Part shown: piece by piece, positions 43,571-48,759 of the stretch
Position numbering within the stretch: the stretch's first letter is position 1
How the letters are laid out: every line of letters begins with the position of its first letter
Source: Nonomuraea polychroma
GTDB lineage: Bacteria > Actinomycetota > Actinomycetes > Streptosporangiales > Streptosporangiaceae
DNA length: 64,000 nt
Reading direction: 5' to 3'
Assembly (NCBI RefSeq): GCF_004011505.1
Contig: NZ_SAUN01000001.1
Span: 1,736,001-1,800,000, forward strand
Translations under genes and position numbers: made by a program
Notes under the pieces: model-generated
Database searches by the model: none
The model's input: only the letters and a program-made list of their open reading frames with translations
What the model was told of the DNA's origin: nothing

Positions 43571-45064
43571 GTGCGCATCAGTGACCTGCTGGCCATCGAC
43601 GATCTGCGGTTGACGCTGCTCACCGGCGACCCGGATCGCGAGTTCAGCACGGTCCACATCACCGACCTGCCCGAGCCGGGGCGCTACCTGTCGGGCGGCG
43701 AGCTGGTGCTGACCGGGCTCATGTGGCGGCACACGCCGGAGGACTCCCGCCAGTTCGTGGCCGCGCTGGCCGAGGCCGGCGTCGCCGCCCTGGGCGCGGG
43801 AGCGGCCTGGCTGGGCCACGTGCCGGACGACCTGCTGGCCGCCTGCCAGGCCGCCGGCCTGCCGCTGATCGAGGTGCCGACCGAGGTCTCCTTCCGCACG
43901 CTGACCGAGCTGGTCGTGCCCCGGCTGTCCGGCGACGTACGCGACGCGCTGGGACGCCACCGCAGGCTGGTCGCGGCCATCGCCGAGGGCGCCGACCTGC
44001 GCGAGCTGTTCGAGCTGACGGCCGCCGAGCTGGGCGTCACCGGCGCCGTCCTGTCCGCCTCTGGCGGGATGATCGTCGGCGCCGTGCGCGACCCTGTAGG
44101 GCTGGCCAAGGCCTACCTGACGGCGCCGCGGCTGCCCGCGATGGTCGGCGGCAGCACGATCTTCGCGGTCGGACGCGGGCACCGGGCCGCGGGCTGGATC
44201 CTCGCCTGCGACGGCGACCTGATCGGCCGCGCCGACCTGGGCTACGAACTGGCCGCCTGCGTCGGGCTCGAACGCAGCCGTATGGAGGAGGGCCGCCGGG
44301 TGGAGCGGCGCCTGGCCGAGCAGCTCATCGTGGGCGCGCTGGGCGACGCCGACGTGGCCGAGCTCAACGCCAGGCTGCGCACGTGCGGGCTCGACGCGGC
44401 GGAGCCGTACGCGATCGTGAACGCCACCGCGCCCCGCCCCGGCGCCACCCGCGGACCCGACCCCGCCACGCTGGGCGGCCAGATCGTCGAGGAGTTGCTC
44501 GGCCGCGAGGTCGTGGCGGCGGCCGGCGCCGACGGCGCGGTCGCCGTGGTGCCGCTACGCGGGCGCACCACCGCCGAGCTGGCGGACCGGCTACGTACGG
44601 GGGTGGAGGTGCTGGCCGCACTGCCGGACAGCCGCGTCTGCGCCGGGCTGAGCGGCGCGCTCACCGGGGCCACCGCGATCAAGGGCGGCGTGGAGGAGGC
44701 GGGGCATGCCAGGCGGCTGGCCGAGGCCCGCGGTGGCGGGGTGGTGACCAGCGACGAGATCTACACGCACGCGCTGCTGCTGGCCACGGTGCCGGGCGAC
44801 GTGCGCCGCTCGTTCGCGGCCCGGCTGTTGTCGCCGCTGCTCGACTACGACCGCCGGCACCAGTCGGAGCTGGTGCGCACGCTCGGCATCTTCCTCGACT
44901 GCGCCGGCTCGTGGAACGCCTGCGCCGAGCGGCTCCACGTGCACGTCAACACCGTCCGCTACCGCATCCGCAGGATCGAGGAGCTGACCGGCAGAAACCT
45001 GGCCACGATGGCCGACCGGGTCGACTTCTTCCTGGCCCTCAGAGACACGGGCCTGCCGCGGTAA
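43571..45064 (+). CDS. PucR-family transcriptional regulator
   Basis: A 497-residue regulator: N-terminal PucR purine-catabolism domain (SGGELVLTGLMW...EAGVAALGAG), a middle GGDEF-like CdaR region, and a C-terminal HTH_30 (LRIFLDC-type: GSWNACAERLHVHVNTVRYRIRRIEELTG). It faces the xanthine dehydrogenase gene and most likely controls it and purine uptake. The GTG at 43571 has no obvious ribosome-binding site. The segment 44690-44907 recurs as a truncated copy at 46015-46232. Confidence 0.9.
   Translation: MRISDLLAIDDLRLTLLTGDPDREFSTVHITDLPEPGRYLSGGELVLTGLMWRHTPEDSRQFVAALAEAGVAALGAGAAWLGHVPDDLLAACQAAGLPLIEVPTEVSFRTLTELVVPRLSGDVRDALGRHRRLVAAIAEGADLRELFELTAAELGVTGAVLSASGGMIVGAVRDPVGLAKAYLTAPRLPAMVGGSTIFAVGRGHRAAGWILACDGDLIGRADLGYELAACVGLERSRMEEGRRVERRLAEQLIVGALGDADVAELNARLRTCGLDAAEPYAIVNATAPRPGATRGPDPATLGGQIVEELLGREVVAAAGADGAVAVVPLRGRTTAELADRLRTGVEVLAALPDSRVCAGLSGALTGATAIKGGVEEAGHARRLAEARGGGVVTSDEIYTHALLLATVPGDVRRSFAARLLSPLLDYDRRHQSELVRTLGIFLDCAGSWNACAERLHVHVNTVRYRIRRIEELTGRNLATMADRVDFFLALRDTGLPR
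44690..44907 (+). repeat. copy A of a 218-bp pucR segment repeated downstream
   Basis: Lies inside the intact pucR gene. Long stretches (for example 44751-44852) are identical to copy B at 46015-46232, while the first 60 bp differ mostly at synonymous positions. Confidence 0.8.
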
Positions 45065-45103: not shown

Positions 45104-46015
45104 ATGCCCTCCCCCCGGCACGACGCCCTCAACCGGCTCATCCGCGACCATCTCGACCTGCCGATACGCCTGCTGCGCGAGGTCGGCGGGATCCAATTGC
45201 CGAGCGACGCCCCGTTGTGGGTGGGGCCGGGAGACCTGCGGGACCGCATCTCCAGGGAGATGCATGCCGACACCGTCGTGTTCGGCGGCCCGCCCCAGGA
45301 CCGATGGTTTTCCGCCATCGTCGAGGTCGAGACGGAAATGTCCGAGCAGAAGTTGCGGCAGACCGTCGAGGCAGCCGAAATGCTGCGGCTGGAGACTCGC
45401 AAACCGGTCTACGTCATGTTCATCACGCCCGATCCCTGCGCGGAGCGCTTCACCAGGAAGGTGGAGATCCGCAGCGGCTGCCTGACCATCATCATGCAGC
45501 CAGTGATCGTCGGGCCCGACCGCATCCCCGTCCTGACCGACTCGCAGCAGATGGCCGCGGACCTGCTGACAACGGCGCTGTCGGTGATGGCGCACGGTCA
45601 CCTGCCGGAGGTCGCCCAGGCATTCATCAAGCTGCTCACCGACTTGCCAGACGACGACGCGGCGTCGCTGTTTGGTTACACTATCGACATGGCTGCGCCG
45701 CAGGCCCGCCGGCTTCTGGAGGAAACCGTGACGACCTACATCCCCGAGCACAGCTCCTGGGCCCAGAGCCTGTACCGCAAAGGCCAGGCCGCAGGCCGGG
45801 AAGAAGGTCGGGAAGAAGGTCGCGCCGAGGGAGAGGCGGCCTCCGTGCTCGCCGTTCTCCGCTTCCGAGGCATCGACATTCCCCCCGCCCGGCATATGCA
45901 GATCACCACCTGCACCGACCTTGCCCTCCTGGAGATCTGGCTGCGGCGCGCTCTGGAAGCCACGCACATCGACGAGCTTTTTGACGACGCTTCCGGGTCG
46001 GAACCCCGGTCCTAG
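45104..46015 (+). CDS. Rpn-like (predicted PD-(D/E)XK nuclease) family protein
   Basis: A 303-residue member of a very common actinomycete family. An N-terminal nuclease-like part (residues 1-120) contains VEVETEMSEQKLRQTVEAA and PVYVMFITPD; a helical middle follows, then a GREEGREEGRAEGE charged linker and the typical tail VLRFRGIDIPPARHMQITTCTDLALLEIWLRRALEATHIDELF. Relatives are called RpnC/YhgA-like, recombination-promoting nucleases. It is wedged between intact pucR and a truncated pucR copy, and its stop touches the start of that copy. The nuclease residues are inferred. Confidence 0.7.
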   Translation: MPSPRHDALNRLIRDHLDLPIRLLREVGGIQLPSDAPLWVGPGDLRDRISREMHADTVVFGGPPQDRWFSAIVEVETEMSEQKLRQTVEAAEMLRLETRKPVYVMFITPDPCAERFTRKVEIRSGCLTIIMQPVIVGPDRIPVLTDSQQMAADLLTTALSVMAHGHLPEVAQAFIKLLTDLPDDDAASLFGYTIDMAAPQARRLLEETVTTYIPEHSSWAQSLYRKGQAAGREEGREEGRAEGEAASVLAVLRFRGIDIPPARHMQITTCTDLALLEIWLRRALEATHIDELFDDASGSEPRS

Positions 46016-46232
46016 TCGAGGAGGCCGGCCACGCCCGCCGCCTGGCCGAGGCCCGCACCTGCGGCGTGGTTACCAGCGACGAGATCTACACGCACGCGCT
46101 GCTGCTGGCCACGGTGCCGGGCGACGTGCGCCGCTCGTTCGCGGCCCGGCTGTTGTCGCCGCTGCTCGACTACGACCACCGGCACCAGCCGGAGCTGGTG
46201 CGCACGCTCGGGTTCTTCCTGGATTGCGCGGG
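46015..46232 (+). pseudogene. relic of a second PucR-family gene
   Basis: In frame it reads VEEAGHARRLAEARTCGVVTSDEIYTHALLLA... down to LGFFLDCAG, matching PucR residues of the intact gene closely. It lacks the N-terminal domains and is cut just before the HTH. Several differences from copy A are synonymous (GHARR uses different codons), so it is a diverged paralogue rather than a fresh duplication, although the middle 100 bp are near identical. Confidence 0.8.
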
Positions 46233-46239
46233 GCCCTGT

Positions 46240-46415
46240 CACCCCAGATCCCGGCGACCACCTGGTTCATCGGGACGGGACGGGCGGCGGCGGAGGAGAG
46301 AATGGCGAGCGCAGCCCGCTGCCTGGCCGGACCGAGGTCGATGGGCTGGGAGGCGCTGGTGGCGCGCTCACCGCTCCCAGCAGGCGAATGAAGATCCCCT
46401 CGCCCACGCCGGCCT
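46240..46415 (-). pseudogene. frameshifted fragment of an AfsR/SARP-type regulator
   Basis: The minus strand encodes FIRLLGAVSA in one frame and, after a shift near 46365, ATSASQPIDLGPARQRAALAILSSAAARPVPMNQVVAGIWGD. Together these are the start of the SARP/BTAD DNA-binding domain. The rest of the gene is missing, replaced by the pucR relic. Confidence 0.65.
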
Positions 46416-46553
46416 CCGTCGTAGCCCCCCATCCTGTGTCAGGAAGGCAGGGTGTCTCTCTCGACGTTCCATGCGGCCGGGGGCGAGACGATGTAGATCG
46501 AATATAGGAGCCGGTCGCTAAGCTGTGCTCAGCGCCGGGCGAGGGGGACCCGG

Positions 46554-46631
46554 AAGAGAGGGCACATGACATTACCTTGCCCGAGGCGCGGTGCGGTGTC
46601 GAGCCAGAGGCAGGCGGATGTGCCCTCTCTT
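46554..46631. repeat. 14-bp perfect inverted repeat, 50 bp apart
   Basis: AAGAGAGGGCACAT (46554-46567) and ATGTGCCCTCTCTT (46618-46631) are exact reverse complements. The unit ends 12 bp beyond the stop of the minus-strand peptide gene. It could be a large terminator hairpin for that gene, or the ends of a small non-autonomous element. Confidence 0.7.
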
Positions 46632-46643
46632 GACGGACCTACC

Positions 46644-46778
46644 TCAACAGCAGTAGAGGTCGAACGACGATGCGATGGGGGCAGACGTTTCGGCGCTTGC
46701 GGCCGTAACATTACCTCCAATGGTTGCCGCACATGTGATCGCGGTAACCAGGGCGGACAGGGCAATGCGCATACGCAT
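46644..46778 (-). CDS. short secreted peptide (candidate signalling peptide)
   Basis: A 44-residue precursor: a basic start (MRMR), a hydrophobic core (IALSALVTAITCAATIGG) and an ASA signal-peptidase site near residues 27-29. Cleavage there leaves the 15-residue peptide ETSAPIASSFDLYCC. The ATG has a good ribosome-binding site (GGGAGAA, six bases ahead). It is divergent from an XRE-TPR regulator 59 bp away, the arrangement of RRNPP receptor/peptide pairs. The C-terminal tandem cysteines after an aromatic residue are unusual. Function is inferred. Confidence 0.7.
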   Translation of the reverse strand: MRMRIALSALVTAITCAATIGGNVTAASAETSAPIASSFDLYCC

Positions 46779-46837
46779 GGGGGTTCTCCCTCGCCTATGT
46801 AGTTGCTCGGACTTCATCTTCTCAGGGAGCGACGGCT

Positions 46838-48121
46838 GTGACCACATCTGACCTGGTCGGACTCCGCATTAAGACGGTTCGGCGACAACGTGGCCTGTCA
46901 CAGGCCCAGCTGGCGCATCCCGAGTTGTCGGACAGTTACGTCTCGTTGATCGAGAGTGGCAAGCGTACCCCGACCCCGGCCGTCTTGGAGCTATTGGCCC
47001 AGAAACTGGACTGCTCACTCTCCTATCTGATCAACGGCGTGACCGCCGAGCAGATGGAGGACATCGAGCTCGCCCTCGGTTACGCGCGGCTGGCGCTCGA
47101 GAACGGAGAGGTCACCGAGGCCCGCAACCGCTTCGCCGAGCTCCTGGCCAACGCCAACCTCACGGGGCTCACCGCGCTGCGCCAGGAGACCCAGTTCGGC
47201 CTGGCCCTCGCCACCGAGGCCGCGGGCGATCTCGCGGAGGCGACCGCCATCCTGCTGAAGCTCCGGGAGGAGGAGCTGCCCCTCGAACGCAGGATCGAGC
47301 TCGCCATGGTGCTCTGCCGGGTCTACCGGGAGAGCCAGCGGCTGTCCGAGGCCGTCGAGGTCGGTGAGCGGATGCTCACCAGCAACGCCCGCCTGTCCTG
47401 GTCGGACTCGCTCGTCGAGCTGGCCGCCACCCTGCTGGCCGCCTACGTGGAGCGCGGCGACCTGCTGCGCGCCCGCCAGTTCGCGGCCGAGCTGCTCAAC
47501 GCCGCCGACGCGCTCGGCACGCCCCGCTCGATCGTGGCCGCCAACTGGAACGCCTCCGCCGTCGCCTACGCCACCGGCCACATCGAGGAGTCGCTGTCGT
47601 TCGCCGAGCGTGCCCTGGCCGTGCAGCTGGAGAACGGTCATCCGCGCAACGTCGCCAGGATGCGCGTGGCGTACCTGCGCAAGCGGCTCAAGGCCCGGCC
47701 TGCGGAGGCCGAGTCCGTCCGCGACGCGCTGCGTGCGGCGGTCACCGAGTTCGAGCAGACCTCGACGAGCACGATCGACCGCGGTTACGTCCACGTGGAT
47801 CTGGCCCTCGCCGAATACCTGACCGGCGACTACGACCTGGCCGTCAAGCACGCCACGCTCGGCAGAGACCTGGTTCCCAAGTTCGGGCACGCGGTCGGTG
47901 CCGAGGCCAACCTGCTGCTCGGCAAGGTCTACAACGCCGTCGGCCGCTCGGAGGAGGCAGCCGGCCACGTGGCGTCCGTACGCCAGTGGCTGACGCCGCT
48001 GCCCGACATCCGGCGCTCGGCCGCCACCTGGTACGCCGCCGCCGAGAGCATGGAGGAGCTGGGCGACTCCGACGGTGCGGTGGAGTCGTACCAGAGGGCT
48101 CTGGCCTGCGTAGGGCTGTAG
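46838..48121 (+). CDS. XRE-family regulator with TPR domain (RRNPP-like)
   Basis: A 427-residue protein: N-terminal helix-turn-helix (about 8-65: LRIKTVRRQRGLSQAQLAHPELSDSYVSLIESGKRTPTPAVLELLAQKL), then a long all-helical TPR array to the C-terminus (repeats such as EAVEVGERML, LLRARQFAAELLNAADALG, EESLSFAERALAV, EEAAGHVASV, GAVESYQRALA). Firmicute receptors Rgg, PlcR, NprR and PrgX have this build and bind re-imported peptides. GGGAG precedes the GTG at 46838. It faces the secreted 44-residue peptide gene and probably controls the shared promoter region. Confidence 0.88.
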   Translation: MTTSDLVGLRIKTVRRQRGLSQAQLAHPELSDSYVSLIESGKRTPTPAVLELLAQKLDCSLSYLINGVTAEQMEDIELALGYARLALENGEVTEARNRFAELLANANLTGLTALRQETQFGLALATEAAGDLAEATAILLKLREEELPLERRIELAMVLCRVYRESQRLSEAVEVGERMLTSNARLSWSDSLVELAATLLAAYVERGDLLRARQFAAELLNAADALGTPRSIVAANWNASAVAYATGHIEESLSFAERALAVQLENGHPRNVARMRVAYLRKRLKARPAEAESVRDALRAAVTEFEQTSTSTIDRGYVHVDLALAEYLTGDYDLAVKHATLGRDLVPKFGHAVGAEANLLLGKVYNAVGRSEEAAGHVASVRQWLTPLPDIRRSAATWYAAAESMEELGDSDGAVESYQRALACVGL

Positions 48122-48165
48122 CACGGTCCGGACCGGGCAGTGGCGTCGGTAGCCTTGGGGATGCC

Positions 48166-48759
48166 ATGAAGACATCCCCGCTCGCGGCACTCACCGCGAT
48201 ACTCGCCGCCCTGCTCGTTCTCGGCACCGCGGGCCCGGCGCTGGCGCACGACGCGCTCAAGAGCAGCACCCCGGCCAAGGACGCCGTGGTCGAGGCCTTG
48301 GACGAGGTCGAGCTCGAGTTCACCGCCACGGTCCGCATGCCGTTCGTCATCGTGCGCGGGCCCGGCGACACCGCGCGGCAGGCCGGCGAGCCACAGGTGG
48401 ACGGCAAGGTCGTGAGGCAGGCGGTGAAGGGCCCGCTGCCCGACGGGAAATACACGATCGCCTACCGGGTCGTGTCGTCCGACGGGCACCCGATCGAGGG
48501 GGAGATCCCGTTCACGGTCAAGGGGGCGAAGACGCCGTCCCCGAGCCCCGAGCCGTCCGGTGACGGGTCTCCCAGTGCGGCGCCGTCCGCGACCGCCGGC
48601 GCGTCCGCTCCTGCCGCGGAGCCGTCGTCACCCGTGGCCGACCAGGCGTCGGCCACCCAGGACGACGCCACCTTCCCCGTATGGCTGATCATCGTGGTCG
48701 GCGGGCTCGTCGGCATCGGCATCGGCTTCCTCCTCAGCGCACGGAGAAACAAGCCATGA
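48166..48759 (+). CDS. copC: CopC-family copper-resistance protein
   Basis: A 197-residue exported protein. A signal peptide ends ...GTAGPALA, and the mature N-terminus HDALKSSTPAKDAVVEALDEVELEF supplies the copper-binding first His. The second His is in SSDGHPIEGEIPF. A Ser/Pro/Ala linker leads to a C-terminal membrane helix (about 168-190). It binds Cu(II) outside the membrane and passes it to the CopD-like partner, whose ATG overlaps its stop (ATGA). Confidence 0.93.
   Translation: MKTSPLAALTAILAALLVLGTAGPALAHDALKSSTPAKDAVVEALDEVELEFTATVRMPFVIVRGPGDTARQAGEPQVDGKVVRQAVKGPLPDGKYTIAYRVVSSDGHPIEGEIPFTVKGAKTPSPSPEPSGDGSPSAAPSATAGASAPAAEPSSPVADQASATQDDATFPVWLIIVVGGLVGIGIGFLLSARRNKP

Follow-up and report, generated by a model that had tools for sequence, protein, structure and literature searches.

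A divergent gene pair of Nonomuraea polychroma encoding a secreted-type di-cysteine peptide and an XRE-TPR regulator, a likely peptide signal and its receptor

The gene pair and its conservation among close relatives

We analysed a gene pair at 46644-48121 of a 64,000-nucleotide stretch (hereafter the window) of the Nonomuraea polychroma genome, which is 11.5 Mb in one contig. The pair consists of a small open reading frame (ORF) for a secreted-type propeptide and a divergent gene for an XRE-type regulator with a helix-turn-helix (HTH) domain and tetratricopeptide repeats (TPR). The initial annotation had described a 44-residue secreted-type peptide gene divergent from an XRE-TPR regulator, and both ORFs and the 59-bp gap were confirmed. 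Specifically, the propeptide ORF (46644-46778, minus strand) starts with ATG, has AGGGAG 7 nt upstream and encodes a 44-aa product, MRMRIALSALVTAITCAATIGGNVTAASA followed by ETSAPIASSFDLYCC, with a basic start, a hydrophobic stretch and an AxA-type site. The predicted cut after ASA leaves the 15-residue tail ETSAPIASSFDLYCC, ending DLYCC. The regulator begins with GTG at 46838, is 427 aa long and matches Pfam HTH_3 (7e-11) and TPR_12 (5.8e-10). The features are as follows.

46644-46778, minus strand: propeptide gene, 44 codons plus stop; divergent secreted-type ORF in 80/80 relative loci
46692-46778, minus strand: signal peptide, predicted from the sequence
46647-46691, minus strand: predicted mature peptide ETSAPIASSFDLYCC, with the Cys-Cys codons at 46647-46652
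46786-46791, minus strand: Shine-Dalgarno-like AGGGAG of the propeptide gene; a motif of this kind precedes 78/81 peptide starts
46779-46837, no strand: divergent intergenic region, 59 bp, holding a CTCCCT...AGGGAG inverted repeat
46838-48121, plus strand: XRE-TPR regulator, 427 aa, likely peptide receptor
46868-47029, plus strand: HTH domain (Pfam HTH_3), residues 11-64
47045-48118, plus strand: TPR superhelix as predicted, with nine pairs of helices (residues 70-427)
47429-47452, plus strand: codons of residues 198-205, with T198 and with 201, 204 and 205, which covary with peptide position -3
47549-47551, plus strand: Asn238 codon; six relatives have Glu instead, each paired with His at peptide -3
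47645-47668, plus strand: codons of residues 270-277; R270 is conserved in regulators with a Cys-Cys (CC) peptide
46554-46631, minus strand: hairpin, 12 nt past the propeptide stop, with 14-bp perfect arms (46618-46631 and 46554-46567)

We then compared the locus with the best 80 of 122 relatives, obtained by a scan of genome contigs; peptide counts with n = 81 comprise these 80 loci plus the window. An ORF was called a secreted CC-ORF when it had 20-110 aa, a basic start, a hydrophobic stretch and a CC end. Such an ORF adjoined the regulator at 78/80 relative loci, while none was present on either strand of the window outside 46000-48500, indicating that the pairing exceeds chance. The distal 352 kb of the 80 relative loci held three ORFs that passed. 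A slightly different filter gave four CC-ending ORFs in these distal stretches (at loci L059, L064, L093 and L038); those at L059 and L064, two loci that begin close to the regulator, are the cognate peptides, that at L093 is the peptide of a tandem second regulator, and that at L038 fails the hydrophobicity test.

A divergent secreted-type ORF next to an HTH-TPR regulator was found at 80/80 Streptosporangiaceae loci, with a spacing of 50-67 bp in the 81 loci as measured from the start of the regulator match. The peptides start with ATG (62), GTG (17) or TTG (2), carry an AxA-like site where one is expected in 70/81 cases and end in Cys-Cys in 79/81 (78/80 relatives); the other two, both from Streptosporangium, end GWNHPD. 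The named genera with CC peptides are Nonomuraea, Sinosporangium, Thermoactinospora, Acrocarpospora, Planotetraspora, Sphaerisporangium, Microtetraspora, Microbispora, Sphaerimonospora, Herbidospora, Spongiactinospora and Thermocatellispora. Within the GTDB family, the regulator was detected at E <= 1e-30 in 167/250 genomes and 38/68 genera. The initial annotation had named two signs that would speak against the pair, homologues lacking an adjacent peptide gene and a peptide not conserved beyond its signal sequence. Neither was seen, since the homologues have the adjacent gene and the C-terminus stays conserved.

Spread in the phylum

In the wider survey, a CC-ending secreted-type ORF was scored when it lay <=500 bp from the regulator. 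Among 40 further stretches of the same family, 21 had a CC-ORF and two an ORF ending CCYE, and seven had Trp/Pro-rich ends (GWGWPG, WEWPG, WNGPW, WQWPI, GWSYPD, LGWGFPD and GWNHPD, the last duplicating a locus of the best-80 set). The remaining ten had none for the scored regulator, L115 among them having a CC peptide at its other regulator. In other families of the class, a CC-ORF was present at 37 of the 44 loci examined (of 45 places found), 30 being divergent, six convergent downstream and one co-directional. Jiangellaceae peptides end ..DWPGMCC and ..PGEFCC, a 2.2-Mb genome has ..GGIWCC, and the ..QWCCDAIPA of a 1.8-Mb genome was scored as a miss; two other misses (L230 and L253) lie near contig ends. 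In 61 Streptomyces genomes, nine better loci in seven genomes yielded four CC-ORFs and one ORF with CC near its end, and 19 weak-scoring loci yielded no CC-ORF. In other classes of the phylum, where the regulators are about 30% identical, 10/12 loci had a divergent ORF of 25-33 aa with a basic start and a hydrophobic stretch, a call made on ORF pattern alone; the ends are FPWPK, YPWPK, FPWGGT, FPGP, NWPHVP, NWPKH, NWPHH, GWPKH and FPGCCG. As a control, a related XRE-TPR paralogue that is common in these genomes (here L002, 9357911-9359206) had a CC-ORF at 0/15 loci.

Note that the survey sets overlap, as L112, L113, L118, L119, L121 and L124 share contigs with best-80 loci. The counts exclude L003-L031, L152-L173 and L223-L229, which largely repeat counted genomes; among these, L003-L031 all have CC, L227 ends QLGPLNNAE and L228 ends GPWGYPI. 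Scoring left out L189 and L190, as both are C-terminal fragments. The name Jiangellaceae follows from L243 and L249, which are identical to named Jiangella proteins, and the name Streptomyces for its genus set from L198, which shares 99% identity with a protein of Streptomyces pharetrae.

Several loci have other arrangements. In the Jiangellaceae, L249, L250 and L252 have two CC-ORFs flanking a single regulator, one placed divergently and the other downstream in convergent orientation, with ends ..GSDYCC, ..GSDFCC and ..GSLYCC. At L116 and L093 the regulators lie in tandem and each is paired with a distinct CC peptide, GKDIACC and VGEPLCC at the first locus and KDIFCC and DAPRCC at the second. 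At L125 and L136, a peptide ending CCYE is encoded between two adjacent regulators in which T198, N238 and R270 are all changed. Furthermore, weakly related Streptomyces XRE-TPR genes (L205, L206, L212, L218 and L219) are accompanied by a different kind of secreted-type ORF (RYxRGLxAAVVAVAxLxLAANxGPAxA..-like) lying divergently 107-162 bp away, and the two are perhaps a second peptide-receptor family.

Sequence change, covariation and neighbouring genes

Across the 79 CC peptides, the signal part is conserved, the core from -3 to -10 (counted back from the C-terminus) is very variable, and -2 and -1 are invariant. The ratio of non-synonymous to synonymous change (pN/pS), computed in three distance bins from overlapping pairs, was 0.018, 0.013 and 0.04 for the HTH (residues 1-69), 0.18, 0.32 and 0.46 for the TPR domain, 0.51, 0.61 and 0.57 for the signal part, and 0.67, 0.92 and 1.03 for the peptide core without CC. 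By this comparison the DNA-binding end is nearly frozen and the TPR domain and peptide core change fast, which is no proof of positive selection, and the peptide is under coding constraint, its signal sequence being constrained as amino acids. A partial Mantel test controlled for CopD distance, in which core and signal part correlate equally with the TPR domain, was not used as support. One alternative is that the peptide, though a ligand, stays inside the producing cell as an internal feedback switch rather than a means of communication. We regard this as improbable, given the signal sequence with its AxA-like site where one is expected (70/81 peptides) and cores that differ strongly from species to species, as private signals should.

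The amino-acid constraint on the signal sequence argues against reading the small ORF as a cysteine-responsive leader, in which ribosome stalling at two Cys codons would control a downstream gene. Polycysteine leaders of mycobacteria are a precedent for cysteine attenuation, and the tandem Cys codons just before the stop would fit. However, no close co-directional gene follows in the window, where the hairpin and opposite-strand genes are found instead; the ORFs of other families are divergent, convergent or co-directional relative to the regulator; and Streptosporangium has no Cys codons at this place, all of which make attenuation highly improbable. The hairpin lies in a 111-nt stretch that folds at -54.4 kcal/mol (z -5.4) and likely marks the end of the propeptide transcript. 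In the 120 nt past the stop, a run of >=10 pairs was found in 52/81 loci and z below -2 in 33/81.

We next turn to residues that may determine specificity. Five positions, T198, N238, R270, A86 and G207, are conserved across 46 CC-bearing regulators but for the most part not kept by the paralogues; the first three lie in helices A of TPR 4, 5 and 6. At the nine W-type loci, one of them a duplicate, residue 238 is G/A and residue 198 mostly Q; among the nine peptide-less loci of the same family, six have Glu238 and seven R270. Note that the CC row of this residue comparison (n = 100) includes the second, peptide-less regulator of L115, a locus left out of the covariation sets. Glu238 occurs in 6 of 141 CC loci, and all six have His at peptide -3; conversely, in the 11 loci with His at -3, residue 238 is Glu in six, Met in four and Asn in one. 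Three of the six Glu238 loci are close relatives, and L092, L151 and L258 stand apart. L092, from Acrocarpospora phusangensis, combines E238 with ..AFHCC, and its congeners, which have N238, carry Y, F or M at -3, as in the ..YIYCC of A. corrugata.

Covariation was quantified as mutual information with average-product correction in 135 unique sequences (10,991 pairs), with 21 signal-peptide positions included as controls. This set is an earlier one without six near-duplicate regulators, and the top pair was unchanged. The highest score was that of residue 205 with -3 (z 6.4), ahead of 201 with -3 (4.5); the top signal-position control came next, at 4.4. Among 57 non-overlapping sister pairs, a change at residue 205 was seen in 22/29 with a change at -3 and in 2/28 without (Fisher 8e-8). 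For -3, the maximum over columns was not reached in any of 2000 distance-matched permutations, compared with 11/2000 for -5 (residue 277), and no covarying receptor residue was found in the sister-pair test for -4, -6, -7 or -8. Permutation controls at the 21 signal positions gave 0 of 500 at one position, 4 at one and 9 at another. The pairing of -5 with residue 277 is no better than the best of these controls and is not claimed. We claim only -3 with 205, because both measures and the neighbouring residues 201 and 204 back it while some controls score. Mapped onto the TPR consensus, residues 201, 204 and 205 would fall at helix-A positions 9, 12 and 13, which typically face the ligand. The covariation at -3 gives indirect support for peptide recognition by the TPR domain.

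A further reading is that the secreted cysteine peptide acts outside the cell, in metal or copper binding, redox or antimicrobial action, and is controlled by the regulator, or together with it, without being its ligand. In the best-80 loci, copC and copD are each found downstream in 79, and CC could bind metal, both of which would fit. However, when copC and copD were searched across all 287 loci, neither was found within the stretch examined at any of the 65 loci from other families, from Streptomyces and from other classes, where CC peptides nonetheless occur, and the Streptosporangium loci have copD yet peptides without CC. Covariation with TPR residues 201, 205 and 238 is also not expected of a peptide that acts only outside. 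We therefore consider an extracellular role unlikely. Since 0/65 distant loci have either gene, the pair is not tied to copC and copD, which are neighbours rather than established targets of the regulator.

As for the promoter region, the CTCCCT...AGGGAG inverted repeat was considered as an operator and rejected; it is no operator evidence because it is made of two facing Shine-Dalgarno sites. A consensus scan gave no sigma-70-like promoter and no T-tailed terminator. Upstream, 44 of the best-80 loci carry a PucR-type gene within the 3-kb flank. In the window, this gene (43571-45064) takes part in a 242-nt direct repeat, 87% identical (44690-44931 and 46015-46256), whose second copy repeats part of it and is placed after ORF 45104-46015. 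This ORF, between the PucR gene and its duplicated fragment, encodes 303 aa with the charged repeat GREEGREEGRAEGE and no Pfam match at 1e-3; its position suggests that it was inserted along with the local duplication.

Proposed mechanism and comparison with known systems

By comparison across loci, the gene pair is stable, its peptide is under coding constraint and position -3 covaries with certain TPR residues of the regulator. We put at roughly 0.74 the probability that the divergent 44-codon gene and 46838-48121 encode an exported peptide signal and its intracellular receptor, with the peptide returning to the cell and binding in the TPR groove. The propeptide would be exported by Sec and cleaved at ASA and further trimmed to a C-terminal 5-8-mer. 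Its re-import would fall to an oligopeptide permease, which is possible given that the genome encodes 26 SBP_bac_5 proteins. The trimmed peptide would then sit in the TPR groove and switch the regulator, with T198, N238 and R270 gripping Cys-Cys as the constant anchor and the residues ahead of it forming a private code. That the HTH is nearly frozen points to a single conserved operator. It probably lies in the intergenic region between the two genes, which would allow autoregulation.

More broadly, and with less confidence, we consider it fairly probable that the Actinomycetota have a gene-encoded peptide language of their own, in which XRE-TPR receptors read private codes on a constant di-cysteine anchor, some lineages having Trp-Pro-type ends instead (GWNHPD of Streptosporangium and GWGWPG; FPWPK and NWPKH of the 25-33-aa ORFs in other classes). 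Residues 201, 205 and 238 of TPR 4-5 would decode -3 and further repeats the preceding residues, the DNA-binding end being frozen.

In the portions available, PMC10075063 states that Actinomycetota typically signal with small molecules and applies RRNPP_detector to Firmicutes and viruses, PMC12700828 treats RRNPPA as a receptor family of Bacillota, with no actinobacterial term found, and PMC9765709 has none of the actinobacterial terms looked for. The available portions of these three papers and of PMC4748050, PMC13220807 and PMC8068269 do not describe the pair, nor does any paper among the best matches of the open-access full-text literature, preprints not covered. What is likely new is the constant di-cysteine end, in a phylum for which these portions of the cited papers report no RRNPP-like system. 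If such plain gene-encoded pairs of peptide and receptor form a widespread family among the main antibiotic producers, they would offer ready species-specific switches to test, each made up of a synthetic 5-15-mer, a receptor gene and a 59-bp promoter region. The covarying residues open specificity to point mutants, and the constant di-cysteine end raises a question of chemistry, namely whether it is reduced, a vicinal disulfide or metal-bound. Lipidation, which the initial annotation had raised for the tandem cysteines, and prenylation are not adopted as readings of this end.

The regulator has the C-terminal TPR domain and N-terminal HTH of RRNPP(A) receptors, and a small propeptide gene of secreted type, with export predicted, lies beside it at 80/80 loci. 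No curated NCBIfam model scored above its cut-off, Pfam found only generic HTH and TPR, and there was no curated-model or specific sequence match to Rgg, PlcR, NprR, PrgX, Rap or AimR. Weak profile matches were obtained to the PlcR HTH (1e-6) and the NprR TPR (1.4e-6), and the PDB sequence search matched PlcR (E 0.0015) and ComR (E 0.0047) over the HTH only. When the fold of the predicted TPR superhelix was compared, Rap, NprR and PlcR chains matched well, Rap chains being among the best bacterial matches in the best 50 listed, and eukaryotic TPR proteins scored higher; AimR and Rgg chains were not among these 50, which is no evidence of absence. The best reading is that the pair is RRNPP-like in design and not assigned to a known RRNPP subfamily.

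Peptide signalling through intracellular receptors is best known from Bacillus and relatives. PlcR-PapR and NprR-NprX of the Bacillus cereus group combine an XRE-type HTH plus TPR receptor with an adjacent small secreted propeptide gene, and the present pair resembles them in this layout; its predicted TPR superhelix also matches theirs, though with lower scores than for eukaryotic TPR proteins. It differs in its phylum, in its Cys-Cys or Trp-Pro-type peptide ends and in its mostly divergent gene order, and its sequence relationship to PlcR and NprR is that of generic HTH and TPR only. With Rap-Phr and AimR-AimP it would share a TPR superhelix reading small peptides; however, Rap is not known to carry an HTH for DNA binding, and its targets are proteins, whereas the regulator here carries an HTH. 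Rgg-SHP and ComR-ComS of streptococci place an HTH plus TPR-like receptor next to a short ORF, and the 25-33-aa mini-propeptides of the distant relatives are similar in size to SHPs, which are exported by PptAB. Finally, gamma-butyrolactones are established cell-cell signals of actinomycetes (PMC4748050, PMC13220807, in the portions available), and the present pair differs from this signalling of Streptomyces in that the signal there is a small molecule and here would be a gene-encoded peptide.
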